From assembly GCA_027491235.1 (NCBI GenBank), contig JAIXWO010000021.1, forward strand, positions 620,001 through 684,000: a stretch of 64,000 nucleotides of DNA, written 5' to 3'. Position 1 is the stretch's first letter. Each line of letters starts with the position of its first letter. This DNA is from Sphingomonadales bacterium. GTDB lineage: Bacteria; Pseudomonadota; Alphaproteobacteria; Sphingomonadales; Sphingomonadaceae. The notes beneath the pieces were generated by a model that had not been told where the DNA came from, ran no database searches, and saw only the letters and a program-made list of their open reading frames with translations. Below are positions 4,098-60,075 of this stretch, one piece after another. A program made the translations under genes and the position numbers.

Positions 4098-4255
4098 CGT
4101 CGCCCCGTGCTTGACACGGGGCTGGGCTAAACTTCGTCCAGTATCAGCCTATTTCTAGCCGGAGACCACCGCTCCCACAGCGTCAGCAGTTCGGGCATCA
4201 GGCCCAACGGGAAAGTGCAAGAACAGACAAGCCCCGTGTCAGGCACGGGGCGACG
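4098..4255. repeat. 158-bp palindrome-bounded intergenic repeat, copy 1
   Basis: Left arm 4098-4123 begins CGTCGCCCCGTGCTTGACAC. Right arm 4230-4255 is its inverted complement with one or two mismatches (GTGTCAGGCACGGGG against GTGTCAAGCACGGGG). Each arm is itself a hairpin (CCCCGTG..CACGGGG). The roughly 105-bp interior is partly shared with copy 2 at 17634-17789. The layout suits a REP doublet or small non-autonomous MITE. No ORF is inside. It lies between convergent genes phaC and the glycosyltransferase, where it may also stop transcription. Confidence 0.85.
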
Positions 4256-17603: not shown

Positions 17604-17633
17604 GCGGCGGCGATAGATTCGCCTTCACTCACC

Positions 17634-17789
17634 CGTCGCCCCGTGCTTGACACGGGGCTTGGCTTAACCTCTGTCCGATTTCAGCCCCTTGGTTAGCCGC
17701 ATTTGAAGGCCAAAGGTTGGCCAATCGGGCATCATGCGAAATGAGTAGGTCCAAGAAAAGCCTAGCCCCGTGTCAAGCACGGGGCGACG
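17634..17789. repeat. 156-bp palindrome-bounded intergenic repeat, copy 2
   Basis: Left arm 17634-17659 is identical to that of copy 1 (starts CGTCGCCCCGTGCTTGACAC). The right arm 17764-17789 is its perfect inverted complement. The interior shares blocks such as GGCTTAAC/GGCTAAAC, TTCAGCC/ATCAGCC, TAGCCG and CGGGCATCA with copy 1 at the same offsets, so the element is homologous over its whole length. It lies between the convergent purD and rlmH stops. No ORF is inside. Confidence 0.88.
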
Positions 17790-17813
17790 GGGAGGTTATG
17801 GGGCCTGAGGCCC

Positions 17814-43658: not shown

Positions 43659-43750
43659 CCGTCTGTCCTGAGCTTGTCGAAGGACTGTTCTTCGCTTTTC
43701 CGCCTTGGGTGGAGAAAAGGACGGTGCTTCGACGAGCTCAGCACGAACGG
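43659..43750. repeat. REP-type inverted repeat (GAGCTTGTCGAAG family)
   Basis: The left arm (43659-43688) contains CCTGAGCTTGTCGAAGGAC. The right arm (43721-43750) is ACGGTGCTTCGACGAGCTCA followed by GCACGAACGG. Arms match with a few mismatches, and a smaller CTTTTC/GAAAAG stem lies between. GAGCTTGTCGAAG..CTTCGACGAGCTC is a common sphingomonad REP sequence. It lies between the convergent PYROXD2-like and receiver genes. Confidence 0.75.
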
Positions 43751-59924: not shown

Positions 59925-59983
59925 GAGGTACAGATAGGCGCGACGGGCGTTCGGGGCAAGGCGCGCCAGCTGCCGGGGTAGGT

Positions 59984-60052
59984 GTCATTCCCGCGAACGC
60001 GAGAATCCAAGGGGCGTTAGAGAAGCTGGATTCCCGCTTTCGCGGGAATGAC
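59984..60052. repeat. REP palindrome (GTCATTCCCGCG family)
   Basis: The left arm GTCATTCCCGCGAACGCGAG runs on to AATCCA (59984-60009). The right arm (60027-60052) starts TGGATTCCCGC and ends CGCGGGAATGAC, an imperfect inverted copy. This is a widespread sphingomonad-type REP. It sits between the M23 peptidase stop and the erpA start, both minus strand, and may modulate readthrough into erpA. Confidence 0.8.
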
Positions 60053-60075
60053 ATAAGCAACGTGACGGTTAAGTC

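Follow-up and report, generated by a model that had tools for sequence, protein, structure and literature searches.

This locus raises the question of what kind of element is represented by the 158-bp palindrome-bounded unit at positions 4098–4255, which has a 156-bp homolog at 17634–17789 of the window (the whole stretch of 64,000 nucleotides analyzed here), and by what means such a unit could have spread. Both units are present as originally predicted. Their left arms (4098–4123 and 17634–17659, plus strand) are identical (CGTCGCCCCGTGCTTGACACGGGGCT), and their right arms (4230–4255 and 17764–17789, minus strand) are the left arms inverted with 0–1 changes (one in the first copy). Every arm forms a hairpin with an 8-bp stem and a 5-nt loop, and the window holds four arm matches, where 0.02 would be expected by chance. 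The first copy sits between phaC (PF07167) and a GT2 glycosyltransferase gene, and the second between purD (GARS) and rlmH (SPOUT_MTase). In both cases the neighbors are convergent, as stated in the original prediction. An Rfam search of the window returned nothing but one tRNA.

The units belong to a larger family. A BLAST search of the genome they come from (G000; 3.39 Mb in 29 contigs) with the first copy yielded 15 full-length copies of 142–160 bp, together with many shorter partial copies and longer relatives, and the family also occurs in congeners. The second copy aligns to the first at 74% (E 8e-20), the interior included. The family is thus neither confined to the window nor alike in its arms alone, the two outcomes named beforehand as counting against it, and the suggestion that the whole unit was mobilized, beyond a simple REP pair, agrees with an interior that is repeated along with the arms and with the insertion polymorphism described below. 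The matching interior blocks hold up in that the interiors align, although one quoted block was inexact, the first copy having GGCTAAAC and not GGCTTAAC. A division of the interiors into two unrelated types (A and B) was dropped, as type A is type B in reverse orientation.

Which enzyme could have moved such units? It had been proposed that they are either RAYT/REP doublets or MITEs. The first option, a REP system served by a REP-associated tyrosine transposase, draws on the look of inverted REP doublets and on insertion near gene ends. A search of the whole genome for the Y1 transposase domain (PF01797) gave no match, the same search being positive in 5 of 14 control genomes. Moreover, the hairpins carry a CGTC tag and not GTAG, and arms of this kind flank GIY-YIG genes. 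We therefore regard a RAYT/REP origin as highly improbable. The MITE half of the proposal fared better, as a longer relative supplied the coding counterpart. This full-length element (G000:C5:20898-21315) measures 418 bp, has the same arms and end sequences as the short units, and encloses an intact open reading frame for a 107-aa protein with a GIY-YIG domain (PF01541, 44 bits). The nearest solved relatives of this nuclease are PDB 1zg2 and 1ywl (A1 against 1zg2, 1.9e-7). Among its homologs, which are small single-domain GIY-YIG proteins, the catalytic motif is intact in 70 of 74 and the catalytic glutamate is present in 73 of 74, and the nuclease is under purifying selection (median dN/dS 0.114 over 2335 pairs).

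The window units are reversed relative to the nuclease sense, which runs along the minus strand in both, and once they are turned around, both ends match the 418-bp element. When 32 short units of this genus are combined into a consensus, it agrees with the first 70 bp of the element at 65/70 (left) and with its last 98 bp at 87/98 (right), and the deletion junction falls at CCGGAATGGC / CCCGAATGGC, which are alike in 9 of 10 bases (microhomology). What is left of the 3' part is still similar to the final nuclease codons; in the first copy this remnant of the reading frame occupies 4158–4195 (minus strand) and matches the codons of the full-length element for PEWLDLWEQWYP. Short units of other genera derive from their own nuclease cut elsewhere (168 and 218 bp in G277, 180–181 bp in G269), and since the deletion points differ between genera, deletion derivatives have arisen repeatedly. 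Judged by their sequences, the two 157-bp units are decayed, noncoding, MITE-like internal-deletion derivatives of a GIY-YIG mobile element. They resemble MITEs in being short, multicopy, and internally deleted while keeping the ends of an autonomous element, and differ from them in their hairpin ends, in additional conserved outer flanks, and in that no target-site duplication is seen. A phage origin was also considered and set aside, with no PHROG match and only distant phage homologs.

Empty sites provide the evidence for insertion. Five congeners lack the copy between purD and rlmH and have the stop codons of both genes 0–7 bp apart. In G000 and the congener G249, the spacing is 206–210 bp, which implies that the inserted unit includes about 24–31 bp beyond each arm. 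Indeed, the outer flank of the second copy at 17604–17633 (common to other copies; reverse complement GGTGAGTGAAGGCGAA...) and its second outer flank at 17790–17813 are both missing at the empty sites, where no target-site duplication is visible and the ancestral junction bases cannot be fixed. The phaC side offers no clean empty site in relatives, as the neighboring genes differ, and at the orthologous nuclease locus in G249 the element is missing, but other sequence differs too. The purD–rlmH junction also holds other insertions (1.5 kb in G250, L310; 684 bp in G241, L311) and may therefore be prone to insertion.

These same empty sites bear on the possibility that the units are no longer mobile and owe their retention mainly to a role as bidirectional terminators or RNA hairpins. 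Such a role would suit their very stable fold (z -8.1) and the location of 9 of 19 copies between convergent open reading frames (rough calling), and a bidirectional terminator had been part of the original prediction. However, the copy is missing from five congeners with convergent genes 0–7 bp apart, and likeness to an intrinsic terminator is limited to one arm: when the four arms were scanned with a terminator consensus, a single one passed, which is about the level of shuffled sequence. Terminator or promoter function is therefore a weak explanation of the units, and we think it unlikely that they persist mainly for such a role.

Further loci concern complete cassettes. In Azospirillum lipoferum 4B, a nuclease gene with REP dimers lies between sufB and sufC (L365, 1869-2487), which lie side by side in three close relatives. 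Related Sphingobium plasmids vary at one intergenic site: three strains have the nuclease cassette (L366, L378, and L379) and two have a solo palindrome, CGTCACCCCGGGTCAAGCCCGGGGTGACG (L374 and L375, one of them with two changes), whose sequence is that of the outer arm halves put together; in two more strains the site is occupied by other sequence. In an Erythrobacter metagenome-assembled genome, the cores of two loci (L216/L217) are identical (406/406), whereas their right flanks agree in 34 of 40 positions (p=1.5e-6), and in Novosphingobium percolationis the outer flanks are conserved but the core between them runs in the opposite direction. Identical cores and an inverted core point to an exchange (inversion or conversion) that would be bounded by the arms.

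Both the Sphingobium site and the Erythrobacter cores could also be accommodated by a homing endonuclease, for which the solo palindrome would be the natural target, the cassette would insert by break repair, REP pairs would be split targets, and the 157-bp units deleted homing cassettes. The presence of either the full cassette or the joined arm halves at one and the same site is what this scheme would lead one to expect. On the other hand, the solo palindrome may equally be a deletion scar between repeated ACCCCGGG stems, and the empty sites at purD–rlmH and sufB–sufC lack a solo palindrome. We consider homing of this kind a possible account, though a doubtful one.

The pairing of nuclease and repeats extends beyond this one element. 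All five small GIY-YIG genes of G000 lie between inverted CGTC-tagged hairpins, with a different sequence for each. We surveyed 241 alphaproteobacterial genomes, found homologs in 103, and fetched 100 loci. Tagged perfect hairpins flank both sides of 42 of 97 high-scoring nucleases, compared to 7 of 2222 control windows. Matched inverted arms occur in 63 of 96 loci, with about one expected at the cut-off (the 99th percentile of the null), leaving approximately one-third of these class-wide homologs with no detectable matched arms. Matched arms also occur at 13 of 17 loci outside the Alphaproteobacteria, and a Neisseria gonorrhoeae homolog is flanked by dRS3-type ATTCCCGC repeats. E. coli yhbQ, taken as a negative control, shows no inverted arms. 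A distant second GIY-YIG subfamily (~50 bits) had been intended as an arm-free control and was dropped from that role: CATCCTGAGCTTGTCGAAGGATGA-like inverted palindromes, missed by the perfect-stem detector, flank 9 of its 13 loci (among them L152, L156, L158, L161, L162, L283, and L297).

The pairing is also specific. Within the genus, the REP type is constant for each nuclease clade. Over 88 nucleases from 53 genomes, arms are more alike where the proteins are more alike (Mantel r 0.178, with 0 of 2000 permutations as high), a correlation that is weak overall, is carried by pairs above about 60–70% identity, and involves related sequences that are not independent. Median arm similarity reaches 0.84–0.96 above 70% protein identity and is about 0.2 below 60%. 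The more similar arm belonged to the best homolog in another genome in 40 cases and to other nucleases of the same genome in 16 (p=0.002). Among 161 genomes of the family, the REP CGTCGCCCCGTGYNYGRCACGGGGC is found only in G000, G241, G269, G277, and G361, precisely the five with the best L062-type nucleases (at least 167 bits), and two further genomes with an L062-type nuclease of 155–165 bits have diverged arms. The hypergeometric chance of this co-occurrence is about 2.5e-8, a value calculated by hand that ignores relatedness and counts as positives the seven genomes above 150 bits, a cut-off picked after the data were seen.

Could the nucleases nevertheless be passengers, small genes captured between REP pairs that an unrelated host or mobile enzyme moves? 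That the nuclease drives the movement is indeed something we infer, and the congeners G249 and G250 keep 157-bp units while an L062-type nuclease was not found in either, which we read as nuclease loss after spread. A passenger would, however, hardly be expected to show the co-occurrence of REP and nuclease in the 161-genome set, the retention of an own REP type by independent nuclease clades across genomes, or matched arms at 13 of 17 loci beyond the class, and we thus hold this alternative to be distinctly improbable.

The explanation that we find likely is that the units are nonautonomous, MITE-like derivatives of an element made up of two inverted CGTC-tagged REP hairpins and a GIY-YIG gene, whose nuclease acts on its own REP. 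The enzyme would recognize and cut its REP hairpin, which would probably be in single-stranded or cruciform form; repair from another copy could then spread, convert, invert, or delete the cassette between the arms, and the same enzyme may also mobilize copies that lack a nuclease gene. More tentatively, and with somewhat less than even confidence, we propose to read the CGTC REPs of proteobacteria, many dRS3-like repeats among them, as remnants of a single kind of mobile element, whose GIY-YIG nuclease, acting on its own hairpin pair, drives homing, inversion, and excision of the cassette. This would correspond to RAYT/REP with a nuclease as its enzyme, and it is not known to have been described as a mobile element before.

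How does this relate to known systems? CGTC REPs were defined by Di Nocera, De Gregorio, and Rocco (2013) by an unpaired CGTC tag and a short hairpin with an 8–9 bp stem and a 4–5 nt loop, with A-T pairs at the first stem positions and a CCA tail as near-general features and apparently no dedicated transposase (PMC3733652). The arms of the 157-bp family share the CGTC tag, the 8-bp stem, and the 5-nt loop, as well as the arrangement in inverted dimers with conserved spacers, the predominance in alphaproteobacteria, and the location beside gene 3' ends. Their stem starts with GCCCC (G-C pairs) and their tail is TTGG, so the two near-general features are missing here; both are found in sister REPs elsewhere in this genome (L059). 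The main difference is that some of the pairs studied here enclose a nuclease gene, which makes the flanked nucleases the best candidate for the dedicated enzyme of CGTC REPs, and their recurrent pairing with palindromes points to an enzyme partner that had been missing for a large group of bacterial repeats.

RAYT-REPs and REPINs likewise have an enzyme gene between inverted REP hairpins and enzyme-less doublets spread through the genome, yet they rely on a Y1 HUH transposase and a GTAG tag, neither of which was found here, where GIY-YIG and CGTC take their place. E. coli YhbQ (UPF0213; PDB 1zg2 and 1ywl) has the same single-domain GIY-YIG fold but lacks the inverted arms. Closest in kind are the Ssn enzymes, which Chenal et al. 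reportedly described in Nature Communications in 2025 as GIY-YIG site-specific single-strand nucleases with cognate repeats (NTS) in Neisseria, and which are said to have been studied for ssDNA cutting and transformation. Like them, the nucleases in this study are small, retain the catalytic residues, and have cognate repeats both beside the gene and elsewhere in the genome, and the N. gonorrhoeae homolog has its dRS3-type flanks. Unlike Ssn as reportedly studied, the pair described here makes up a mobile cassette that has left deletion derivatives, is missing at empty sites, and also occurs inverted between its arms. Apart from the Ssn work, our literature search found no paper linking REP repeats with GIY-YIG nucleases. 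If Ssn is as reported, the enzyme–repeat pairing was already known, and what appears to be new is the mobile anatomy: units shortened by deletion, empty sites, and inversion or conversion of cassettes within the bounds of the arms.

With each REP family paired to a specific small nuclease, the transposase question for CGTC REPs becomes directly testable, and the presence of several REP families in one genome finds an explanation. Poorly annotated genes ("GIY-YIG nuclease family protein", sometimes "excinuclease ABC subunit C") become candidate drivers of repeat spread, and the matched enzyme–substrate pairs may be of use for single-strand DNA tools.

A few other repeats were noticed along the way. 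The window contains an inverted 71-bp CGTC-type REP pair at 59983–60053, of the type flanking another nuclease of the same genome (L058), and an inverted pair of the TCCTGAGCTTGTCGAAGGA palindrome at 43666–43743, of the type flanking the second GIY-YIG subfamily in relatives. Elsewhere in the genome (G000:C17:321914-324270; L029 and L030), an array is made up of single CCCCGTG REPs and CCCCGGATCA REPs in alternation, at a spacing of about 1.1 kb; no nuclease matching the latter type was seen in G000. Finally, two PLSDB records (NZ_CP119140.1 and NZ_CP119142.1), listed as 2.17-Mb "plasmids" of Neisseria gonorrhoeae, look like chromosomes.
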